From a virus, in the IMG/VR virus record IMGVR_UViG_3300006733_000189, positions 1 to 21,044 of that record: a DNA stretch of 21,044 bases; one strand, written 5' to 3'. The position numbers were made by a program, and so were the translations under genes. Positions 436 through 19,950 of the stretch are shown in pieces (positions within the stretch are counted from its first letter, which is position 1; each line of letters starts with the position of its first letter). The notes beneath the pieces were generated by a model that saw only the letters and a list, made by a program, of their open reading frames with translations, searched no databases and was not told where the DNA came from.

Positions 436-1134
436 TTATGCAACTATCACGTCGCAATTCGTTATTTGCTGGACTTCCGATTTGAAGTATTCGGCGTCCG
501 AGTTATCATTTGATAAATGTAGAAGAATAACCTGTTTTAGTTTGCTCCTATCATTTACCTGAAAGAACTTGATTACTTCCTCTAAACTCATATGAGATCC
601 AACCGTCCGCCGGAAACGTTCGTTTTCTATTACATCATCTGCTGTGTTGCGCCTGATGATTTCCTGGCTATAATTGCAGCTTATCGCCACCACACAGAGG
701 CCTTCTATGCGATAACGAATATACTCACAGTCGATGGCAAATAAGCACCTCTCACCCAATTTATTGATTATTACATAAGCCATATTATCAACATCATGGG
801 GCACATCAAATGGCATTACTTTAAACGAACCGATTTGGAATAACTTTTTACTATGTATTATGTGTGCTCTGTGATGATTTATTTTAAGTGATGATATTGT
901 GTCCTCAGATGTATATACATCGATACCATACATCAACACTTTATTTACAGCCTTAGAATGATCTGCGTGCTGGTGACTCAACAAACAAGCATCAATCTCA
1001 GATGTTTTGAAATCTAATTTGTGTTGTATTTCAGCCCATGGTAGTCCGCACTCTATCATAATCTTCGTTTCGCCATCTGATAGAGTGTATAGATTACCCT
1101 TGCTGCTGCTGGCATAAGATCGAAAGTCTAGCAA
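436..1134 (-). CDS. MBL-fold metallo-hydrolase, YycJ/WalJ-like (putative nuclease)
   Basis: The metallo-beta-lactamase motif H-x-H-x-D-H is present as SHQHADH, about residues 53-59 of the chosen product. Downstream are a His in VPHD, an Asp in FAIDCEY and a His in LLHLSNDNS, in the order expected for metal ligands of this fold. The N-terminus ([18 protein letters not shown]) resembles the ASGSSGN start of the YycJ/WalJ branch, which includes DNA exonucleases. The TTG at 1134 is preferred: GGAGG lies 6 bases upstream and the fold begins immediately. The ATG at 1200 would add 22 unrelated residues. The start lies inside the HNH gene (41-base overlap). Family knowledge: MBL proteins often neighbour recT in phages of Gram-positive bacteria and are suspected exonuclease partners. 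That role here is inference. Confidence 0.85.
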
Positions 1135-1714
1135 CTTCAGCCTCCAGCTCTTCAATGTGTTTGTTTGCCCCGTCATAATATCCTTTGGTATAGCCATCAC
1201 GATAACCTTTGCTGTGGTTTTTGTGGTGACTATTTTTAGTCATGAGTTCTAGGTTCTCCAGCCTATTATCGTATCTTATACCATTTTTGTGATGTACGAT
1301 TTCCCATGATTGCAGACATCTTCCTAAGTGCTTTGCCATAACTAACCTATGTTCTGGAATTTGGTTGTGGCGGTTTGCCATTTGATGAAAGAAGTCTTCG
1401 GGGTGGACCCATATAAGTATATAGCCGCTGCCATCACTGACTCTGCCGCCTTTCCATTTATGGTTCTTTTCGCCAGTTAGTGCATAACTGCGCTTGCGGT
1501 TAATTTCCTCAGATGGTTTCCGTCCAATATTAATACAGCTACGACATCGCTGATTAGTTGGCCCTGTGGCACACAACTGAACCCAACGTTCCTTACCACA
1601 GTACACGCAACTGTGCCATATGTAATTTGCACCACCCTTGAATCCTATTTCGTGTGCCCTTTTTATATCACCTAATTTAGGACTACTGCCTGATGCTATT
1701 ACTTCTATATTCAT
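1094..1714 (-). CDS. HNH endonuclease (HNH_3-like) with N-terminal zinc ribbon
   Basis: A 206-residue protein. The N-terminal third has two CxxC pairs (CVYCGKERW and [10 protein letters not shown]) typical of a zinc ribbon, followed by the NHKWKGGR motif. The HNH core is [11 protein letters not shown]...[22 protein letters not shown], with the double His, Asn and LENL signature. The C-terminus has [13 protein letters not shown] repeats and a short coiled coil. The ATG at 1714 is preceded by AGAGG; the open frame extends upstream to 1855 without a better site. Such free-standing HNH proteins in phage operons are often selfish homing nucleases. The structured gap just upstream and the overlap into the MBL gene fit a mobile insertion, but a role in recombination or packaging is not excluded. 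Confidence 0.88.
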
Positions 1715-1730
1715 GGTGCCTCTTCTTGAT

Positions 1731-1805
1731 GCTAGGGGGAGTAAGCTAGATGCCTTTGTTCGTTGACTGTAACAAGGGTTCCTTTCTTTTAATTCTCCCC
1801 CTAGC
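1731..1805 (-). repeat. 11-bp inverted repeat enclosing nested stem-loop
   Basis: GCTAGGGGGAG at 1731-1741 and CTCCCCCTAGC at 1795-1805 are perfect reverse complements separated by 53 bases. Inside, CCTTTGTT (1753-1760) and AACAAGGG (1771-1778) can also pair with one G-U. The transcript between the 26-codon membrane ORF and the HNH gene can therefore fold into a long nested hairpin. There is no U-tract after the stem, so it is not a standard terminator. Confidence 0.6.
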
Positions 1806-1811
1806 TGTAAA

Positions 1812-1892
1812 CTACTTATGGTGCAATAAGGCGTGAATAGCGAATGCCATAACAAGAAAACCGACTATCATGCCAATATATATACCTACCAT
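1812..1892 (-). CDS. small membrane peptide (26 aa)
   Basis: The ATG overlaps the recT stop codon (TAATG), an arrangement for translational coupling. The 26-residue product is almost entirely hydrophobic ([20 protein letters not shown], then a short His/Lys tail), so it should form one membrane-spanning helix with a positively charged C-terminus. No separate Shine-Dalgarno is visible. Size and topology recall small phage membrane proteins such as holin-like or superinfection-type peptides, but nothing identifies a function, and its place in a recombination operon is unusual. It could be a chance ORF, although the exact stop/start overlap argues against that. Confidence 0.5.
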
Positions 1893-3326: not shown

Positions 3327-3794
3327 CTACGTGCTAATAGATTTTGTGCTTCTCCCAACAACACCGCATATACCACATTTAGGTTGGTGCCTTTCGTTAT
3401 AGGTTAGCGGAAACTCTGGGTGGAATTTTTCCATATGAAGAACCTTGCTTTTGTGGCCAAGATTAACTCCACAAATATCGCATGTTGTACTAGTGCGCAG
3501 TCTCTTGACTTCTTTTTCAGTCGGTGGCTTCTTTTCGGGTTGTTGTTCGGTTTTTAAACTTTCAGGATGGTAAAAATTATAGTGTTCAATAATCCCCGCT
3601 ATCCCTGTAAGTGTTTGTCCGCACTTGGCGCATTTATATGCCGCCGAGTTGGGATAGTCTTTCGTCTTGTATTCGTATATGAATTCATACTCAGGGTGCT
3701 TTGCCCTCATATGAGCTTGTTTCCTTGCGTGTCCGTAGGTACTCTTTTCCAATACTTCGCCGCATATTTGGCAGTTGTAATCTTGCTCATTCAT
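3327..3794 (-). CDS. C2H2-like zinc-finger protein
   Basis: A 155-residue protein with three repeated fingers of the form C-x2-C-x(11-16)-H-x4-H-P: C8/C11/H28/H33, C55/C58/H71/H76 and C105/C108/H120/H125. A fourth CxxC (C140/C143) comes near the end but no His pair follows, so the last finger is incomplete. The ATG at 3794 has GAGGG 7 bases upstream; an adjacent GTG one codon earlier is less well spaced. A charged Lys/Glu/Pro linker joins fingers 2 and 3. Fingers of this kind usually bind nucleic acid. Its position between the Rad50-like ATPase and RecT suggests a DNA-binding accessory factor or regulator. The specific function is unknown. Confidence 0.8.
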   Translation of the reverse strand: MNEQDYNCQICGEVLEKSTYGHARKQAHMRAKHPEYEFIYEYKTKDYPNSAAYKCAKCGQTLTGIAGIIEHYNFYHPESLKTEQQPEKKPPTEKEVKRLRTSTTCDICGVNLGHKSKVLHMEKFHPEFPLTYNERHQPKCGICGVVGRSTKSIST

Positions 3795-3841
3795 CACTCT
3801 ACCCTCAACATTTTTTTATTTCTCCTAAAGTTGGCATAATA

Positions 3842-6423: not shown

Positions 6424-6726
6424 TTATTCGTTCCAATTTGGGTTTGCTTCCTTGAATGGGCAATAGATCGTTGCTTTACTCGGCATATTATACCGCGTGC
6501 AAGTCCATTCGGTTGTGTTGGTGGCGTGGTTGTGTTCCTCTACGTTTGCCGGACAATCTTTGCATACCTCTTTTTGCATAGCCTCGATCAATAGTGGGCA
6601 AGTTTTTTCCTCGCCGGCTTTCAGGTTGCAAAAATGGAAGTCTTGCCGGAATACAAAACTGTATTCGCTAGTGTGGTGCTTGCATTGGATGTTTTCGCAT
6701 TCGTTGGCGTTGGTGGTGTTAATCAT
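6424..6726 (-). CDS. cysteine-rich hypothetical protein
   Basis: First gene of the leftward early operon, 100 residues with eight cysteines (C10, C15, C33, C43, C55, C58, C76, C89) and several histidines (HH at 17-18, HNH at 65-67). The C55-x2-C58 pair and the spread of the others suggest one or two structural metal sites. No signal peptide is visible, so a cytoplasmic zinc-binding protein is more likely than a disulfide-rich secreted one. GAGG lies 8 bases before the ATG. The candidate promoter at 6764-6792 lies just upstream. As the first early gene it may act in host takeover or regulation; this is inferred from position only. Confidence 0.75.
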   Translation of the reverse strand: MINTTNANECENIQCKHHTSEYSFVFRQDFHFCNLKAGEEKTCPLLIEAMQKEVCKDCPANVEEHNHATNTTEWTCTRYNMPSKATIYCPFKEANPNWNE

Positions 6727-6763
6727 GTCGGTGCCTCACTTTCAATATTTAATTGTGCTTTAC

Positions 6764-6792
6764 ACTCTATAGAGAGTCCGTCGGACTGTCAA
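6764..6792 (-). promoter_or_regulatory. early leftward promoter with operator in the spacer
   Basis: On the minus strand a perfect -35 TTGACA (6792-6787) is followed by a 17-base spacer and TAGAGT (6769-6764), four of six matches to the -10. The palindrome AGTCCG-T-CGGACT (6775-6787) fills the spacer and touches the -35. Transcription would begin about 30 bases before the first early gene. The layout is that of a repressor-controlled phage early promoter. Confidence 0.7.
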
Positions 6793-6884
6793 CGAGAGTA
6801 TATGAAGCTAAATTTACGTTCTCCAAAAAGTCGTAAATCGAAGCTAAAAAACAGTCCGCGGACTGTATGAGTCCGACGTTTGGG

Positions 6885-6916
6885 TTGCGGACTGTTTCAC
6901 GCGTATGTTATATAAT
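6885..6916 (+). promoter_or_regulatory. rightward promoter within the operator array
   Basis: TTGCGG (6885-6890) and TATATAAT (6909-6916) are spaced 18 bases apart if TATATA is taken as the -10. A CGGACTGT element (6888-6895) overlaps the -35. Transcription would start at about 6921, at the 5' end of the candidate small RNA. The -10 to ATGAG stretch matches that of the terminase small-subunit promoter in 13 of 17 bases. Confidence 0.5.
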
Positions 6917-6920
6917 AAGT

Positions 6921-7000
6921 ATGAGAGTTTGCCGGCCTCGTGTCGGTTCTCTTTCCTTCGGTGTCGGTTGGTTGTGGCGGCCAGCCGGCACCTATTTTTT
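6921..7000 (+). ncRNA. candidate structured small RNA (or leaderless 31-aa peptide)
   Basis: Downstream of the promoter at 6885-6916, TGCCGGC (6930-6936) pairs perfectly with GCCGGCA (6984-6990). The 3' arm is followed by CCTA and six Ts (6995-7000), as at a Rho-independent end. Between the arms GTGTCGGTT occurs twice (6940-6948 and 6961-6969), 21 bases apart. The same stretch can also be read as a 31-codon ORF from an ATG at 6921 to a TGA at 7014-7016, rich in Gly, Trp, Tyr and Phe, with no ribosome site. RNA and peptide are both possible. The family is unknown. Confidence 0.4.
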
Positions 7001-7104
7001 CGGACTGTATTATTGAAGCTGGAAAAGAGTCCAGGCCATTTATTTCCCGGCGGACCGCTCGGCGGACTGTTTTTTCGTAGCTAAAACTGGCGGACTGTTT
7101 GGGG

Positions 7105-7113
7105 TGGTATAAT
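7105..7113 (+). promoter_or_regulatory. extended -10 promoter
   Basis: TGGTATAAT is a perfect -10 with the extended TGn motif, which can work without a good -35. A CGGACTGT element lies 9 bases upstream (7091-7098), where the -35 would meet the polymerase. The transcript would run through AGCCC-TCTAG-GGGCT (a short hairpin, 7136-7150) and two tandem GGGGCTGTTTT units (7144-7165) toward the terminase genes. Confidence 0.45.
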
Positions 7114-7260
7114 TGCCTAGTTCAAAGCTAATATAGCCCTCTAGGGGCTGTTTTGGGGCTGTTTTGGTACTTTTAGCTATGAGCTACGAGTGATTGTAGC
7201 TGATAAAATAACAGTCCACACTCGAAACCTTGCCGTAGTCTCAAGCGGTAAAATGATGCT
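7114..7260. other. non-coding stretch with tandem repeat
   Basis: No gene is visible. It holds GGGGCTGTTTT twice in tandem (7144-7154 and 7155-7165), a small hairpin before it, several TAGCTA/AGCTAC motifs, and one degenerate operator half-site ACAGTCCA (7211-7218). Confidence 0.6.
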
Positions 7261-7416
7261 TTTTATCTAATTAGCCAATTGTCTAATTTGATAAGCCCGT
7301 TTGGCTAATTAGCCAAGTTTTTTTATCTAATTAGCCAAGTTATGCACTCGCTTAAAGATAAAACATAACCTTAAAGATAATATATATTAGTAGAATCTTT
7401 TTAGCTAATTAGCCAA
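7261..7416. repeat. CTAATTAGCCAA repeat array
   Basis: Four exact copies of CTAATTAGCCAA at 7267-7278, 7305-7316, 7327-7338 and 7405-7416, all in the same orientation. The second is the right half of the 16-base palindrome TTGGCTAATTAGCCAA (7301-7316). T-runs precede three copies. CTTAAAGATAA occurs twice between copies 3 and 4 (7351-7361 and 7370-7380). The array ends about 20 bases before the promoter of the terminase small subunit. It may bind an activator, or serve as a packaging or replication site. Confidence 0.75.
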
Positions 7417-7434
7417 GTTTTAACGCTTGTAGGC

Positions 7435-7463
7435 TTGACATTATCCTTGCAATGGATTATATA
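7435..7463 (+). promoter_or_regulatory. promoter of terminase small subunit
   Basis: A perfect -35 TTGACA (7435-7440), a 17-base spacer and TATATA (7458-7463). The predicted start falls at about 7470, exactly on an in-frame ATG, which implies a leaderless transcript. The upstream ATG at 7452 lies within the spacer and could not be on this transcript. Confidence 0.7.
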
Positions 7464-7469
7464 AATCTT

Positions 7470-7961
7470 ATGAGCTTTATTATTGCTAGTAACTTACCGG
7501 AACCATCTCCACACTTTGACTATAACCAGAAAGAGATCGATTTCTGTATTGCTTATGTATTCAGCGGTAGCGCTTCTAATGGTACTGAATGCGCTAAAAT
7601 AGCTAATTATACTGCTAATACTGATAATAGCGCTGCTGTTACTGCCCATAGATTGTTAAACAATGATAAGATAATAGATTATATAAGTATATTAAAACAA
7701 CATGCTTTATCTCGGTTGTCTCTAACACGCGATAAAAAGTTAGAATTGTTGTCTAAATGGGCACAAGAAACTCATTACACCGGCAAGGATGGCACCACGT
7801 TAACACGCTCTCAAAATATGAGCGCCGTTGATCTACATAATAAAATGACCGGCGAGTATGACCTGAGCCTGGCTGATATCCTGGGCCGTATTATATATGA
7901 TGTTGAATTTGTAACCAGTGACGATGAAGACGCCGAAGACAACACCTTACTATTAGAATAA
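7470..7961 (+). CDS. terS: terminase small subunit (Terminase_2-like)
   Basis: A DNA-recognition subunit for packaging, about 163 residues from this start. The opening YNQKEIDFCIAYVFSGSASNG, the helix-turn-helix-like stretch up to AAVTAHRLLNNDKIIDYI, and the following LSLTRDKKLELLSKWAQET match the pattern of Terminase_2 proteins. These bind the packaging site through the N-terminal domain. The C-terminal end is acidic (SDDEDAEDN), a common place for contact with the large subunit. The ATG at 7470 is chosen because the promoter would start transcription there. An ATG at 7452 would add six residues, but neither ATG has a Shine-Dalgarno. HNH endonuclease and terminase large subunit follow, as in many phages. 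Confidence 0.8.
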   Translation: MSFIIASNLPEPSPHFDYNQKEIDFCIAYVFSGSASNGTECAKIANYTANTDNSAAVTAHRLLNNDKIIDYISILKQHALSRLSLTRDKKLELLSKWAQETHYTGKDGTTLTRSQNMSAVDLHNKMTGEYDLSLADILGRIIYDVEFVTSDDEDAEDNTLLLE

Positions 7962-8010: not shown

Positions 8011-8376
8011 ATGTACAGACCTTTTGATGATGAAGCAAGGGATTGGCGCTATAAAGTTATGAATAGAGATCGTAGAACCTGTCAAGACTGCGGCGCCAAG
8101 GCCAGGTACGCCCACCATGTAAAACCGTGGAAAGACTGCCCAGAACTAAGATATGACCCCGATAATGGCATTGCGTTATGTATCCCCTACCATAAGCGGA
8201 AACATGGTCATTATATAATGACCCCTCAACAACAGGCAGAGTTGGAGAAGACATGGTATTATCGTGCTCGTAACCCGGTCATATCTACAGTTACACTGTC
8301 ACCGCACCGTAACACTTTAACCAGCATACCGCTGACGCTTACGACCCGAATGGATGGTGCCCTATGCCTAACATGA
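8011..8376 (+). CDS. HNH endonuclease beside terminase
   Basis: A 121-residue nuclease of the kind encoded next to terminase and needed for DNA packaging in HK97-like phages. The HNH core is RDRRTCQDCGA (C24, C27), ARYAHHVKPW (H35, H36), RYDPDNGIALC (N52, C57) and HKRKHG (H61, H65). Most relatives carry a second CxxC (LCxxCH), but here the fourth ligand position is Tyr (CIPYH, Y60), so the structural zinc site may be weakened. GAGG lies 7 bases before the ATG. The last 45 residues show no recognisable motif. Confidence 0.85.
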   Translation: MYRPFDDEARDWRYKVMNRDRRTCQDCGAKARYAHHVKPWKDCPELRYDPDNGIALCIPYHKRKHGHYIMTPQQQAELEKTWYYRARNPVISTVTLSPHRNTLTSIPLTLTTRMDGALCLT

Positions 8377-12508: not shown

Positions 12509-12700
12509 ATGGCCAGCCAATACAAGTTCACGGTAGACGACTTAAACGCAATGATGAGTGAGGCAAGTGGTGATGCAATGCCCAAACCGAGTATCAAGGG
12601 CTTTAAGAGCAAGATGGGTTTGAATAATAACAAACCCGTCGTTACTAATCCTGTTGCCAGCCAGACCACTACGACAAATCCTTTAGCAGAAGGTGAATAA
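12509..12700 (+). CDS. small structural-region protein (63 aa)
   Basis: A 63-residue protein between portal and giant protein. GGGGG lies 7 bases before the ATG, and the stop overlaps the next start (TAATG). The N-terminal part is a short helix with Met/Ala (DDLNAMMSEASGDAM), then a basic stretch, and a Thr/Asn/Pro-rich tail that looks disordered. Position suggests a head accessory or internal peptide. No family is recognised. Confidence 0.65.
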   Translation: MASQYKFTVDDLNAMMSEASGDAMPKPSIKGFKSKMGLNNNKPVVTNPVASQTTTTNPLAEGE

Positions 12701-15700
12701 TGGCCACACGCAATTTGCCCGCCGGATTGCAAGACAGGTTATCCCAGATGGGATTATCTGAACAATATAAGAACGCTGGTACGATAGAACAGATACGTCT
12801 CGGAAAAATAGCTGAAGAGGCGTATGGTGATCTACCTAGTGGAGTAACAAATCTCACTTCCGCTGAAGCATTGGAACGGTATGATGTTACTTTACCTACA
12901 GACCAGTGGCAACTACGGGTAGACCCTACTGCTGCGGACCCATTCAGTTATGTATCTCCCGATCAGTTGGTTTATGGTGATGTTGTAAGAGACGAAGATG
13001 GACTCATTACAGATTACACTACTACGTTCCCTACTGGTGAAACATTCTCACTAGCGGAATTGATGGAACAACAGGCAAACTTCGATGAACAAACAGCGGT
13101 TTCCGATCTATACCGCGAGGCTTTTGGCATACCATACGAGGACATATTCGGTGAGGGTACTGCCTACGGGGACAAATATAGTGTAATCCAATCTGGCGTG
13201 CCTGAAGGCCAGATGTTCAATGTTATGTACGAACGAGCGCAAACCGATCCCGATGGCCTTATAACAGATGTAATTAGTCATACCACAATGGCTGATGGTA
13301 GACGTATACTTTCGCAGTTCTTTGAGTTTGAGGAAGAGGATTTAGTTGAAATGTACGCTGGTCACGCCAAAACAGAAGAGGCTATAGGTATCTACCGATC
13401 AGCATTCCCAGAAACGTTCCACAGTGATGAGTATATAAAGCACTATATTACAGGGGTATTTGAGGGTGATAAAGCTAAAGGTTTTGTAGATAACTTGCGT
13501 ACTGCTGGCTGGAATGATAATACTGTAGACTTACTCACACTTATGTTTGGTGAATTAACTCCGGCTGATTTAGCCGGAATATTCGGTGAAGATGAATCAC
13601 TCAAACGTACTGCTTTTTTGGAGTATGAACGCGATCTTTTAATTGAACAGATGGGCCCGAGTGCATTTGGCGCACACGTTGGCGTTTTCTACGACCCAGA
13701 ACTTAACGGTTTACATGCACTTGATTTGCCGAACCTATACATGATCGGCAAAGCTGTCCAGGGTTTAACGGGGCAATTCCCTTTTAAGACGAAACGTTCA
13801 GATGTTAGTAGCACAGATTTGGTAGTAACTCCGTTTGGAATGATGCCAAAAGGTAATTTATATGTGATCGATCGAGGTGCTTATACAGCACAAGAGTTCT
13901 ATGATCTTTCCATGCAAGTTTTGGACCGTTACGAAGTTCTCAAGACGGAAACAGGATACAAGTTCGGGCGCAACCTACTCTCCGGTGTAGGTTCTCTCGT
14001 TAATAATATAGGCGGTGTTTTCCGCATGATGGGTGCCGAGGGCATAGGTAATAGGATATCCGAAGAATCTGTATCACTTACACGACTCGCACTAGCAAGT
14101 GATCTCGGTGCATTCCAGTGGAATCATTTATTAAATCCTGAGTTTTGGGCCACAAGCGTTGCATCTTCTCTTCCTACAACACTGGCACTTATGATACCGA
14201 GTATGGGTGCATTCAGTCTCGCGGCTGGTGGTGCCGCAGCACTAGGGCTTGGCACGATTGGGCAAACAATAGTAGGTGCCGTAGGCGGTGCATTGATATC
14301 TAGGCCATTAGAATCTGCACTTGAAGCCGCACAAACATATGATACAGCTAGGGCAAATGGCGCTAATCATGCTGAAGCGCGCGCAGCAGCCGGAAAAACA
14401 TTCAAGGGCAATATGAAATTAGTGCTTTCCGATGCACCACAGTTGGCTCTCGCTTTTATAAAAGTTCCAGCCAGAATTTTAGCCATAAAAAATGTCATAA
14501 ACAGAGGTCTAGCTAAAGTTGCTTGGACGGGCGGTAAATTCTTTATAGAAGGGCTCACCGAGGGCGGTGAAGAGGTATACCAGTCTATTATACAAAACAT
14601 GGCTCTCGGAGACAAACGTGCCTGGACACAAATGCTTAATGACCCAGAAATGCGTGAAGTATTCGCTATCGGTGCCGTGATGGGTGTAGGCTTCGGCTTG
14701 GCCGGTGAGGTTATGCAACGTAACGGTATGGGTACGGTTACTACCACAATGAAGAGACTTGAGATGGGTGTCCTCGCTAGACTTTCGCCAGAACAACAGA
14801 CTCAATTTAAGACCAGAAAAAGAGTGTTGATGGGACAGAATATCAATGAGGGTGCTGCTATCTTACAGGCTCTTGAAGAAATGTCCAAAGAAGACGCATC
14901 GATTGTCGGAAGAGTTGAGGGTATTGTAAAAGCGTCCATGGCCCTTGACCTTGCACAGCAAATCATTACCGATGATAAAGCGACCGTTGAGGCCGTAAAA
15001 CATGAATTAGCCAAGACTTTCAACGAATACGATATTAACCCAGAAGAGATAGGCGTTACCCAAAAAGACCTTGATGTGATTGGCGAAAGGGTAATAGAGG
15101 AAAAGATACCTGTTACTGAACCAGAACGGTTTACTTTTAACCTGAATGAATACGGCAAAATGACACAAGAAGAAAGAATAGCGGATATCGGCAAACCGCT
15201 TGAAGAAATGACCTTTGAAGAATATGCCGCTGCCGTTGACCCGTCTTACCAAATGTCTGATGCCTATAACACGGTGCCGGATTTAAGAGAACGTTGGGAA
15301 GCGCAAAGGACACAGACCGTTGATTTAGACAACATGACCGCGCCTATCCCTGAAGGTGTCGATGTAGCACTTGATGAGGTAAATGCTAAAATCGATGGTC
15401 TTGAGGCGGAACTGGCCTATGATTCTTTAGGACAGATACGGTTCCAAGTACCGGTAAAAAAAAGAACGGTAATGGTCGATGGTGTTCAGACTGAAAAGGG
15501 CAAAGGATATAAAGAAGTCGATATCACATATTTCATCAGTATACGAGAACAAACATTCCCAGAGTATTTCACCGTAAAACAGGCCAGACTTCTCTTCCCA
15601 GGGCATAACTTCGATCAGTATACCCAGAAGGATAGCAAGCTGTATAACCACGTTCCTAAAGATGAGGCTTTATATGATCTAACAGAGCGCTTAGATATGA

Positions 15701-18700
15701 CTCCCGATGAGATTGCAGAACAGGCTATGCACATACGGGACGTTAGAAACCAGATTAAACTCTTACAAACTGAGGTTACAACTATCCAGCCCAAACAGGC
15801 TAAAGATCTCACGCCGGCCCAGAAACGAAAGATAATCCAACTGTTCGCACAGTACCTTATCAGTCCTGAAGCGGTAAATGCGTGGGATTTAGTTAAAGCG
15901 CTTAGAACCGATATCCGCGCCAAACGTGCCGAGAACTACCATGTAAGGCTTGAAGAACTTGTATTAGAGAAGAGGCAACGAGGCCAAATACCTGATTATT
16001 ATGCCTTAAGCAGACAAGCTCGTAAGGAAACTGCCTCTGGTGCATTCCCCACCTTGACAGAAGAGTACGTGCAAGATGTTACTGATCGTATGCGTAAAGT
16101 GTTAATGGAACATATACACATGACACTCACAGATGCTTATGAGATATGGAATACTGAAACCGCTTTAGATAACGCTCTTATGGGCAAACCGATACCTCGT
16201 GACCCAGGTTCCACAGGCCGTTCAGCTTTTACTCGGTTATATAAAGTGTTCGGTTCAGATCCGGAAGTGATTAAAGCGATTGAACAAATGTCTAGTGAGG
16301 GTAGATCGCTGGCTGATGCCGCCGGCGCCTTAATTGAGGATTGGGTTAATCAAGGTAAACCGCCATCTATGCTAGATGCTGAAACAGGCGAGTATGTAAA
16401 AACCATTCCGGACAATCCTGATGAATCGTTACCAGCAACCGTACAAGCAGACATGAATATGCTGAAGTTGGAACTGGCACTATCACCGCCGCGACGCCGA
16501 GGTGGGCCGGCCCCAACGACGCCTGACCCACACAGGATTGTGAATTGGCTTAAAAAGATCGGTATGTTCGCTATGGATATAGGTAATATGGTTCGTGCGA
16601 TCAGAACATCGATCGACTTGTCCGCTGGTCGCCAGTTGGCACCGCTAATAGTTTCACACCCTGTTAAATTTACACAAGCACTTAGAAAGGCGTGGTCGGC
16701 TATGTGGTCGCCCACTTCTGCCGATGCCGCTTGGAATAGGATAACCAGTTCAAACCTATACAATCATATCTACAAAAAGGGCTTAAAGGATTACGGGGAT
16801 AAAGGCGACCCGTTGCGACCTCATATAATCAACCCTGATGCACCGACCGTGAGCAACGTTGAAGAGTACGGTTTAATGAAGGGGCAAGAGCGGCTTATAC
16901 CAAAACTGATTGAAGGTGAGTTCACCGAGGGCTGGCAACATCTGGCACAAAAACTGTTTGCTGGTGTGCGTATGTCTGAACGTGCTTTCATTACCATGAC
17001 TAATGATATGGTGTGGTCGCTGTATGAAGAACGCTTCAATCAACTCAGTCGTGAGAGAGACGAGATAATCGCTGGCAAGAGAAAGCCACCTAAGACCGAG
17101 TGGGGCGAGTACATTGTAAAAGAAATGCACGATTGGGCAACCTATCTCGCTGAAATGACAGGTCGCGCCAGCCTCGGCAAAACCCTCTCTGGTGGTGCGC
17201 GGTTCCTCAATGCTTTCTTCTTTGCGCCTAGGCTCATGGTGTCGCGCCTTGTGGCTCCGAGGCACTTGTTCAGCGGTAACAGATATATCCGCAAACAGGC
17301 ATGGAAAGATATGACCACATTCATTGGTATGTTTACTGGTATGTTGTTATTGGGTAAACATCTTGATCTATGGGAAGTCGAGTTTGACCCTCGTAGTGCG
17401 GACTTCCTGACCGCCAGAGTAGGCAATACCCGTATAGACCCGTGGGGTGGTTTTAAGCAATATGCGGTGTTATATGCTAGACTGACTTCTATTATTATCA
17501 AGCAATTTGACCCGACCGTTGAAACGATGAAGTCTTCTACTACTGGTGCAACAAGTGATGCAAACCTCGCATCGATGCTCTTTGATTTTATGAGAAGCAA
17601 GGCCGCGCCAATGACAGGTGAAATGCTTAACTTCTATGAAGGAAAAAACTATGTAGGTGAAGAGATTGATGTTACCAATCCCCAGCAATGGCTTGAGGCG
17701 ACTTTACCATTCTCAGTTTTAGATATAACTGAAGCTATTATGGAACATGAGTTTTGGGGGCTAGGTGTTGCACCATTCGCTTTCCTCGGCATGGGCGCTC
17801 AAACCTACAGTGGTGATTGGAGAGAAGATTGGGCAAACCTCGGTTTATCTAAATACGAGGACAATACATTCTACGGTGACACCGAACCGTTATACGATGT
17901 TAAAGACTTTTGGGCTGATAATGCCGCTTCGTTTTCTGGCACACAACCTGGGTTCGCTGATGAGGATAGAGGCTTTGAACCTTATATGGTCAAATTTGTT
18001 GAGGCGGTGATACTAAAGAATGAGAACCTTAAGCATGTACCATCGCAAGCAGTTATAGAACTCAACGCCGATCCAGCCGAGGGTTCTACCTTTGAAGACT
18101 ATTACGCACTCTGGCAAGAACGGCAAAGGCTGGTTGCTGCCGGAGATCAAGCTGCCCTTGAAGCGTTTGATAAAGGTGAAACCGATCATGGTGATGTTAC
18201 AACCAAAGCGTACATGGGCAACATGACACAATCTCAATATTCTTTACTTAAACAGTATTATCTACTTGATGAACGGGACCAAGTTGACTTCTTAGAGGTT
18301 CACCCAGAACTCACCACGAATAGACAACAAGAGTATCTTACTGACCGACCTGAAGAAAACGCCTTACTTGCCATTTGGGGACAGGCACCAGTTTACTCAA
18401 AAGCTGCCCTAAATCGGGCTGAGAGCCTTGTTAAAGAGTTGGGGATACCAGAGGTAGCGGTGATGGATTACATGCCCAATCCGACGATTGCTGATTCGTA
18501 CTTTGACCGCATAGATATTGTGAATGACTTTGGCCGAGGTTCATGGGAAGATAAACTATTCCTTGCCGAGAATCCCGATCTGGCTGAGTTCCTTAATCTT
18601 CAGATATCCGATACGCCTATTGAGGCGTTGCAGTTGCAAGTAGACCACCACGAGTTGTTCAAGACACTCAAGGCATATAGTGATGAGGGTTCAGAAGAGT

Positions 18701-19950
18701 ATATAGCGGATGATCAACAACGTGCCGAGGCGGTAGCTGATTTGAGGCAAACAGTAGTTGAACCTGGCGAGAAATTTCCCGACCTAGCATCGGATACTGA
18801 GTTCAGAGACATTGAACGCATGATTGATGTTATCAAGCTCGGCTTTAACGCTGATGATGAGGCGGTTGCATCGTATATAGGCTACATGAGGTTAAAAGAT
18901 GAGGGCGATACGATTGGCGCTAACCTCTATCGTGCCGACAATCCTGAATTCGATGATTTTCTAACAAGTGAACTTATCTGGGGTGATAATAAGAATGAAC
19001 CGCTTGATGAATCCCGCATACCCATATGGCGGATAACCGATGCCTATAAAGATCAGGACGCGGCATACCAGGCAATACTCGATGAGCACGTCGATGATGT
19101 TCCCATGCGGAATCAGAAGATAGCGGAATTCCTCGGCAAACCTGAGAATATGGAATACGCACAGAAACGGTTAGAGCGCGCTGCGTATGAAATAGGATAC
19201 ACCGACCCTCAACTGTATGTTGATTATATGAACTTACCTGATACCGGACACTGGCGAGAGCGGTTCCGGGCGGAAAACCCAGAGTTCGATGCCGTTCTTA
19301 CCGAGGCTCATGGGCTTACTGCGGTAGATCCGTCGACTATTCCAAATGTAGAGTACGACCAGTTATATCAACAGTATCAGCCGCTATTTGAAGAGTTCGC
19401 TGATCGAACTGGCGATGCACTTAATTTGAACGCACTTAAATGGTCTGATAGTATGGTTGAGATTGGACAATGGGACGCACAGACAGCATTGACATTCAAA
19501 CTCGCCTATTATCGCCGCCAAGCGTGGGGCGACTTTATGCCGGAAGAGTATGTAGACAACTATGTAGAGTATTATCTGTTGCCGGACACCGGCTGGGCGC
19601 AAGAGAGATATCTGGCCGAAAACCTTGAGTTTTATTATGTCATAAAAGAGAAAAGAGAGTGGATTGATACTATAGAGTTTGATATGGTTCCCAGCGAAAA
19701 AGTTGAAGACCTCTATAATATATACCTCGACGACCCAGAAGTAAGTGCGACAGCTAACACTCGCCTTAATTTCAGGTATGAGAATCCCGAGCTCGATGAT
19801 TGGATGATGCAAACTGGCAAGGTTAGCGTACCGGCATGGCAGCGAGTCGAACTTACTCAAGCTGATAGAAACGCATTAAAACTCATGGCGTTACAGGAAG
19901 AATTTGACAATCTAAATCTTGATGAATTACTGGAAGAACTAAGGAGGTGA
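12700..19950 (+). CDS. giant polyvalent internal virion-type protein (2416 aa)
   Basis: One uninterrupted frame with large-polyvalent-protein features. The N-terminal 350 residues are acidic with no known enzyme. Hydrophobic segments lie at about 488-533 and 655-669, with the motif FIEGLTEGGEEVYQSIIQ between them, typical of giant phage proteins carried inside capsids. A charged helical middle (about 790-1250) follows. The segment FFFAPRLMVSRLVAPRHLF, a hydrophobic helix (1538-1553) and FDPRSADF...VGNTRIDPWGGF (about 1562-1587) recur in such proteins as far as I recall. The last 550 residues carry degenerate repeats with NPE[FL]D cores. The protein is probably packaged in the head and ejected with DNA to help genome entry; this is inference. 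AAGGTG precedes the ATG. Confidence 0.85.
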   Translation: MATRNLPAGLQDRLSQMGLSEQYKNAGTIEQIRLGKIAEEAYGDLPSGVTNLTSAEALERYDVTLPTDQWQLRVDPTAADPFSYVSPDQLVYGDVVRDEDGLITDYTTTFPTGETFSLAELMEQQANFDEQTAVSDLYREAFGIPYEDIFGEGTAYGDKYSVIQSGVPEGQMFNVMYERAQTDPDGLITDVISHTTMADGRRILSQFFEFEEEDLVEMYAGHAKTEEAIGIYRSAFPETFHSDEYIKHYITGVFEGDKAKGFVDNLRTAGWNDNTVDLLTLMFGELTPADLAGIFGEDESLKRTAFLEYERDLLIEQMGPSAFGAHVGVFYDPELNGLHALDLPNLYMIGKAVQGLTGQFPFKTKRSDVSSTDLVVTPFGMMPKGNLYVIDRGAYTAQEFYDLSMQVLDRYEVLKTETGYKFGRNLLSGVGSLVNNIGGVFRMMGAEGIGNRISEESVSLTRLALASDLGAFQWNHLLNPEFWATSVASSLPTTLALMIPSMGAFSLAAGGAAALGLGTIGQTIVGAVGGALISRPLESALEAAQTYDTARANGANHAEARAAAGKTFKGNMKLVLSDAPQLALAFIKVPARILAIKNVINRGLAKVAWTGGKFFIEGLTEGGEEVYQSIIQNMALGDKRAWTQMLNDPEMREVFAIGAVMGVGFGLAGEVMQRNGMGTVTTTMKRLEMGVLARLSPEQQTQFKTRKRVLMGQNINEGAAILQALEEMSKEDASIVGRVEGIVKASMALDLAQQIITDDKATVEAVKHELAKTFNEYDINPEEIGVTQKDLDVIGERVIEEKIPVTEPERFTFNLNEYGKMTQEERIADIGKPLEEMTFEEYAAAVDPSYQMSDAYNTVPDLRERWEAQRTQTVDLDNMTAPIPEGVDVALDEVNAKIDGLEAELAYDSLGQIRFQVPVKKRTVMVDGVQTEKGKGYKEVDITYFISIREQTFPEYFTVKQARLLFPGHNFDQYTQKDSKLYNHVPKDEALYDLTERLDMTPDEIAEQAMHIRDVRNQIKLLQTEVTTIQPKQAKDLTPAQKRKIIQLFAQYLISPEAVNAWDLVKALRTDIRAKRAENYHVRLEELVLEKRQRGQIPDYYALSRQARKETASGAFPTLTEEYVQDVTDRMRKVLMEHIHMTLTDAYEIWNTETALDNALMGKPIPRDPGSTGRSAFTRLYKVFGSDPEVIKAIEQMSSEGRSLADAAGALIEDWVNQGKPPSMLDAETGEYVKTIPDNPDESLPATVQADMNMLKLELALSPPRRRGGPAPTTPDPHRIVNWLKKIGMFAMDIGNMVRAIRTSIDLSAGRQLAPLIVSHPVKFTQALRKAWSAMWSPTSADAAWNRITSSNLYNHIYKKGLKDYGDKGDPLRPHIINPDAPTVSNVEEYGLMKGQERLIPKLIEGEFTEGWQHLAQKLFAGVRMSERAFITMTNDMVWSLYEERFNQLSRERDEIIAGKRKPPKTEWGEYIVKEMHDWATYLAEMTGRASLGKTLSGGARFLNAFFFAPRLMVSRLVAPRHLFSGNRYIRKQAWKDMTTFIGMFTGMLLLGKHLDLWEVEFDPRSADFLTARVGNTRIDPWGGFKQYAVLYARLTSIIIKQFDPTVETMKSSTTGATSDANLASMLFDFMRSKAAPMTGEMLNFYEGKNYVGEEIDVTNPQQWLEATLPFSVLDITEAIMEHEFWGLGVAPFAFLGMGAQTYSGDWREDWANLGLSKYEDNTFYGDTEPLYDVKDFWADNAASFSGTQPGFADEDRGFEPYMVKFVEAVILKNENLKHVPSQAVIELNADPAEGSTFEDYYALWQERQRLVAAGDQAALEAFDKGETDHGDVTTKAYMGNMTQSQYSLLKQYYLLDERDQVDFLEVHPELTTNRQQEYLTDRPEENALLAIWGQAPVYSKAALNRAESLVKELGIPEVAVMDYMPNPTIADSYFDRIDIVNDFGRGSWEDKLFLAENPDLAEFLNLQISDTPIEALQLQVDHHELFKTLKAYSDEGSEEYIADDQQRAEAVADLRQTVVEPGEKFPDLASDTEFRDIERMIDVIKLGFNADDEAVASYIGYMRLKDEGDTIGANLYRADNPEFDDFLTSELIWGDNKNEPLDESRIPIWRITDAYKDQDAAYQAILDEHVDDVPMRNQKIAEFLGKPENMEYAQKRLERAAYEIGYTDPQLYVDYMNLPDTGHWRERFRAENPEFDAVLTEAHGLTAVDPSTIPNVEYDQLYQQYQPLFEEFADRTGDALNLNALKWSDSMVEIGQWDAQTALTFKLAYYRRQAWGDFMPEEYVDNYVEYYLLPDTGWAQERYLAENLEFYYVIKEKREWIDTIEFDMVPSEKVEDLYNIYLDDPEVSATANTRLNFRYENPELDDWMMQTGKVSVPAWQRVELTQADRNALKLMALQEEFDNLNLDELLEELRR
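18565..19800 (+). repeat. C-terminal protein repeats of the giant gene
   Basis: The sequence encodes five related segments with an ENPEFD-like core: ENPDLAEFL (residue 1957), DNPEFDDFL (2080), ENPEFDAVL (2192), ENLEFYYVI (2307) and ENPELDDWM (2361). Three have a preceding tyrosine-rich helix and PDTG-type turn (MNLPDTG, YLLPDTG, MRLKDEG). Spacing is 123, 112, 115 and 54 residues. VHPELTTN at 1868 may be a sixth, more diverged copy. Confidence 0.6.

Follow-up and report, generated by a model that had tools for sequence, protein, structure and literature searches.

A predicted small structured RNA inside a likely operator array between the opposed gene blocks of an uncultured phage

Introduction

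Control regions of uncultured phages have rarely been described, and this study asked what is encoded in one of them, a gap between two opposed gene blocks in which short repeats gather around candidate promoters. The source sequence was IMG/VR record IMGVR_UViG_3300006733_000189, positions 1-21,044, an incomplete genome, and "the window" refers here to this whole stretch of 21,044 bases. The repeat array sits in the gap that separates a leftward block, encoding a RecT-like annealing protein, an SbcC-like protein and a metallo-hydrolase, from a rightward block that opens with the small and then the large terminase subunit. The recombination genes are similar to those of Bacillus, Paenibacillus and Staphylococcus phages, at identities below 60% and mostly 30-45%. 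The gap has the appearance of a control hub, and its new element is a small RNA inside the array (Table 1).

Table 1. Features of the gap and its borders, in window coordinates unless the relative (L094) is named
Feature	Position	Strand	Remarks
First gene, leftward (early/recombination) block	6424-6726	-	
P1, leftward early promoter	6764-6792	-	TTGACA-17-TAGAGT; promoter scanner
Degenerate octamer copy CGGACTCT	6773-6780	-	in P1 spacer
Octamer copy 1, CGGACTGT	6782-6789	+	reverse strand overlaps P1 -35
Second motif AGCTAAAA	6842-6849, 7079-7086; 7171-7178, 7399-7406	+, +; -, -	
Octamer copies 2 and 3	6851-6866 (copy 2, 6851-6858; copy 3 from 6859)	-, +	head to head; perfect palindrome ACAGTCCGCGGACTGT
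P2, candidate promoter of small RNA	6885-6916	+	rightward; weak TTGCGG, TGT-TATATA / TATAAT (6911-6916)
Octamer copy 4	6888-6895	+	overlaps P2 -35 and spacer; distance to -10 kept in L094
Predicted small structured RNA, ~75 nt	6923-7000	+	two hairpins and U-run
RNA hairpin 1	6923-6955	+	followed by four-base linker
RNA terminator hairpin	6960-6992	+	15 pairs; then U-run UAUUUUUU to 7000
Octamer copy 5	7001-7008	+	immediately 3' of terminator U-run
Degenerate octamer copy CGGACCGC	7051-7058	+	L094 counterpart CGGACTGC
Octamer copy 6	7063-7070	+	
Octamer copy 7	7091-7098	+	P3 spacer region; distance to -10 kept in L094
P3, candidate extended -10 promoter TGGTATAAT	7105-7113	+	without -35
Degenerate octamer copy TGGACTGT	7211-7218	-	kept in L094 as TGGACTGC
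TAATTAGCCAA element array	7267-7278, 7301-7316 (palindrome), 7327-7338, 7401-7416		upstream of P4
P4, late promoter	7435-7463	+	TTGACA-17-TATATA; conserved without gaps in L094
Small terminase gene, first in rightward (late) block	7470-7961	+	Terminase_2, 8.5e-9
AAAGTGAGGCACC leader sites	window 6726, 6404; L094 2897, 3940, 4517, 5162, 5709, 6938, 7508, 11457	- (window)	

Results

Clustered octamers in the gap

Seven exact copies of the octamer CGGACTGT/ACAGTCCG were found, all within 6782-7098. A first-order Markov model predicts 0.42 copies per contig and 0.006 per 317 bases, and the probability of at least seven in some 317-base stretch is about 1e-17. The first-pass annotation had claimed seven copies in about 320 bases, where chance would give far fewer than one, and a perfect 16-base palindrome at 6851-6866; both are exact in the sequence, and the search outside the array that it proposed returned no copy in the rest of the window. 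The octamer read backwards had zero copies in the contig. With one mismatch allowed, 18 matches were counted against 11.9 expected, which is unremarkable, so the signal comes from exact copies and from their clustering. Six of the seven copies are direct repeats, the majority are single half-sites, and the spacing of successive copies on the plus strand is irregular (77, 29, 113, 62 and 28). A second motif, AGCTAAAA, is interspersed among the octamers in the gap; it has four copies in the window and three in the relative described below, and is absent outside the intergenic regions of both phages. A literature search for the octamer gave no match. A perfect 11-base tandem repeat, GGGGCTGTTTT (7144-7167, 2.2 copies), lies 3' of P3 and is absent from the relative.

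A relative with the same arrangement

A RecT search recovered a 36-kb contig, L094 (IMGVR_UViG_3300006733_000029), also an incomplete genome, in which RecT is 68% and the portal protein 89% identical, and the gap is flanked by a matching gene arrangement. Its capsid shows weak similarity to the capsids of two Pelagibacter phages. Seven copies of CGGACTG lie within 314 bases of the syntenic gap (array 2521-2834) and one more in the remaining 36 kb; equal density elsewhere, which the first-pass annotation had named as refuting its reading, is thus not seen in either contig. Since the last base is T or C, the word can be written CGGACTGY.

Identity to the relative was 82.5% across P2 and the RNA, 81.7% at 6999-7113 and 83.7% at the late promoter, and the right half of the array (82%) is better conserved than the adjacent small terminase gene (58.5%). 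Identity fell to 51.9% in the left half, where P1 and the palindrome lie, and to 42.5% where the first early gene begins. Within this left half (52%) octamer copies reappear in the relative although the surrounding sequence aligns poorly, which would be the pattern expected of binding-site turnover. The palindrome is not conserved as such: the relative has ACAGTCCA there, and what is kept are half-sites, mostly in one orientation.

Further relatives were sought with four contig proteins, two alignments and DNA patterns, and these scans returned L094 as the one close relative, so that the known members are two. Such scans depend on exact matches of short peptide or DNA stretches and may therefore overlook relatives; L094 was itself missed by single-protein TerL, TerS and SbcC scans. 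Matches to the ACAGTCCGCGGACTGT palindrome in six IMG/VR contigs were not taken as relatives, the GC content being 54-67% in all six, and in the two that were inspected (L089 and L093) the word lay within local repeats rich in GC, and nothing pointed to kinship. There, ACAGTCCGCGGACTGT stands amid dense inverted and direct GGACTGTCC repeats (L089:1555-1610, L093:2525-2625) that are themselves operator-like.

Promoters within the array

P1 was listed by the promoter scanner, while P2 and P3 were absent from its output, and support for these two comes from the sequence itself and from their alignment to the relative without gaps. In this region, promoter-like sites showed no excess over shuffled sequences (2 versus 2.4). 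The relative has a different candidate promoter in the P1 region, as judged by eye. Octamers had earlier been placed at three promoters, and the overlaps hold, with the -35 at P1, with both -35 and spacer at P2, and with the spacer at P3, but P2 serves no gene or operon. Covarying structure was not found in the P3 transcript (7114-7240).

A structured RNA downstream of P2

P2 appears instead to lead into a terminated, structured non-coding RNA. The second of its two hairpins is followed by a U-run and so has the appearance of a typical intrinsic terminator. The z-score of the fold was -5.3 in the window and -6.2 in the relative, and the 80-nt segment at 6921 had the most stable fold among 4,194 segments from both strands of the contig. 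All 26 of 26 pairs are formed in both phages, three of them, in the terminator stem, through changes on both sides, whereas slid alignments used as controls gave 33-59% paired positions and zero double changes. With two sequences only, shuffling is a weak control for covariation, and 60 of 500 shuffles reached the observed level. The two contigs share an identical run of 27 bases that reaches from hairpin 1 into the stem of the terminator.

A coding role was rejected. A 59-aa ORF (6905-7084) stops at codon 5 in the relative (ATG TTA TAT AAT TGA), and the peptides from the ATG at 6921, at the start site, differ between the phages owing to a 1-nt change in the loop of hairpin 1. Rfam 15 contained no family above the gathering threshold, the RNA core had no exact match in the GTDB genome collection, and no similar DNA was found in 50,697 phage records; in IMG/VR the relative was the sole other carrier. 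A covariance-model search of 89 sources found the RNA in the two contigs only, apart from a GC-rich contig (L090) whose one weak match (17.7 bits) was regarded as chance. As far as sequence can show, this is a real, previously unlisted structured RNA of the phage pair, which presumably is made and acts.

Late promoter and early leaders

The late block has its own predicted promoter, P4, preceded by a differently worded array of TAATTAGCCAA elements that includes a perfect palindrome, TTGGCTAATTAGCCAA, at 7301-7316; the array and promoter correspond to 2121-2330 in the relative. The centre of the last element lies about 61 bases upstream of the predicted P4 start, and this element is conserved without gaps. 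Only 6 nt separate the P4 -10 from the small terminase ATG at 7470, and the predicted start coincides with this ATG, so that in both phages the small terminase mRNA probably lacks a leader. The late genes thus appear to be controlled apart from the octamer array, and the earlier description of that array as the main switch of the phage was not borne out. Early start codons are directly preceded by a near-identical leader of 12-13 bases, AAAGTGAGGCACC, which is absent from late genes.

Discussion

In temperate phages of the lambda oL/oR type, operator arrays lie at the divergent early promoters. The array described here resembles them in that one site is clustered at core promoters, on both strands, between opposed gene blocks and not elsewhere. 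It differs in its small RNA gene, in the second, different array of the late genes, and in a repressor gene not being found nearby. It also differs in that most copies are single half-sites pointing the same way, which is not the layout of classical dimer operators, and in that its one perfect palindrome is lost in the relative; this is one of the points that speak against an operator array. A conserved operator array at 6760-7220 is nevertheless the likely interpretation, and from it we infer protein binding, repression and lysogeny. A sequence-specific, phage-encoded DNA-binding protein would bind the CGGACTGY half-sites and, in the simplest reading, block polymerase; because the octamers overlap the -35 or the spacer of P1, P2 and P3, repression of all three is most likely. 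P1 would supply the leftward early block with its recombination genes, P2 a tightly folded, terminated non-coding RNA of about 75 nt, and P4, under its own array, the late genes. On balance, the evidence tilts towards this arrangement, in which an octamer-bound phage protein probably represses the early block and the small RNA while the late genes are controlled through P4.

Iteron replication origins consist of short direct repeats beside an AT-rich stretch, and the main rival interpretation is that the array is such an origin, with an initiator binding the direct CGGACTGT repeats, the AT-rich 7240-7465 melting, and the RNA linked to the origin. Six of the seven octamers are direct repeats and adjoin AT-rich sequence (GC 0.38 in the 7001-7500 bin), the sign of the GC skew switches here, and the relative has an O-like initiator gene without an iteron array of its own. 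However, the skew also tracks the change of coding strand and so cannot separate an origin from operators. The O-like gene of the relative (15759-16406) lies about 13 kb from its array, the repeats are irregularly spaced (28-113 bp), and at P2 and P3 the distance from octamer to -10 element is fixed. An origin is considered unlikely, although it deserves more weight than the other alternatives.

If the array is made of operators, the role of the RNA within it has to be considered. The lambda OOP RNA is a short phage RNA that is transcribed from a promoter of its own up to an intrinsic terminator and runs antisense to the end of cII; a LexA repressor site has been described in the oop-pO sequence (PMC12197685, PMC5869508). 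The P2 RNA is similar in being short, with its own promoter and intrinsic terminator, all as predicted from sequence. Unlike OOP, it overlaps no listed gene on the opposite strand and has no Rfam match; the minus strand across 6923-7000 contains no ORF of at least 50 aa with a start codon. With no listed gene opposite it, antisense action of the OOP kind is unlikely. The HK022 put RNA, of about 70 nt, has two stem-loops near its promoter (PMC9378689), and the P2 RNA can be likened to it in size and layout. A put-like role is possible, but the second hairpin of the P2 RNA is followed by a U-run, which favours termination over read-through. It has also to be asked whether P2 starts a late leader, the RNA serving as a pause or termination module that polymerase would pass, into the late genes, with the help of a phage factor or of the RNA itself, as the cis-acting antiterminator put does in HK022. 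The two hairpins beginning at the predicted start site and the direction of P2 towards the late genes would suit such a leader, but the terminator-like U-run, the presence of the conserved P4 immediately before the small terminase gene, and the lack of an Rfam match all argue against it, and we regard it as distinctly improbable.

The regulator was sought in both contigs. No gene for a repressor or another recognisable DNA-binding regulator was found in the 21 kb of the window or in the 36 kb of the relative, both of them incomplete. A 156-aa protein (3327-3797, minus strand) carries three CxxC...H motifs similar to C2H2 zinc fingers, with weak Pfam matches only. It has no counterpart in the relative and is therefore unlikely to be the reader of a conserved array. 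The missing phage regulator would also be accounted for if the octamers were bound by a host regulator or by an activator; with a poor -35 in P2 and none in P3, activation also fits. However, the octamers lie inside the core promoters, not upstream of them, and there is little to recommend this explanation over a phage repressor. Least credible of all is a trans-acting silencer that pairs with the shared start region AAAGTGAGGCACC of early mRNAs, since pairing energies were no better than those of shuffled RNAs, and mostly worse, even though about ten early genes across both phages carry this leader and the RNA contains CUCUUUC and GCCUC stretches.

A bolder but tentative interpretation is that the RNA is the founder of a new phage RNA family and a working part of the switch, controlled by an unusual half-site operator array; this is possible, if rather less than probable. 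The tight fold and the lack of mRNA pairing would then point to polymerase or a protein as the target of the RNA; were it polymerase, the short list of phage RNAs known to act there would grow by one. The gap thus combines conservation above that of the neighbouring gene, an RNA without an Rfam relative, and early and late control that appear to be written in two differently worded arrays. The octamer, used as bait, and the 75-nt RNA are concrete targets in the search for the regulator of a phage group that lacks sequenced close relatives.

Further features were observed outside the gap. The window carries two HNH endonuclease genes (1094-1855, minus strand; 8011-8376, plus strand), possibly mobile, neither of which was seen in the relative. 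A single gene at 12700-19950, without a PHROG match, encodes a protein of 2,416 aa, and its counterpart in the relative encodes one of 2,630 aa.
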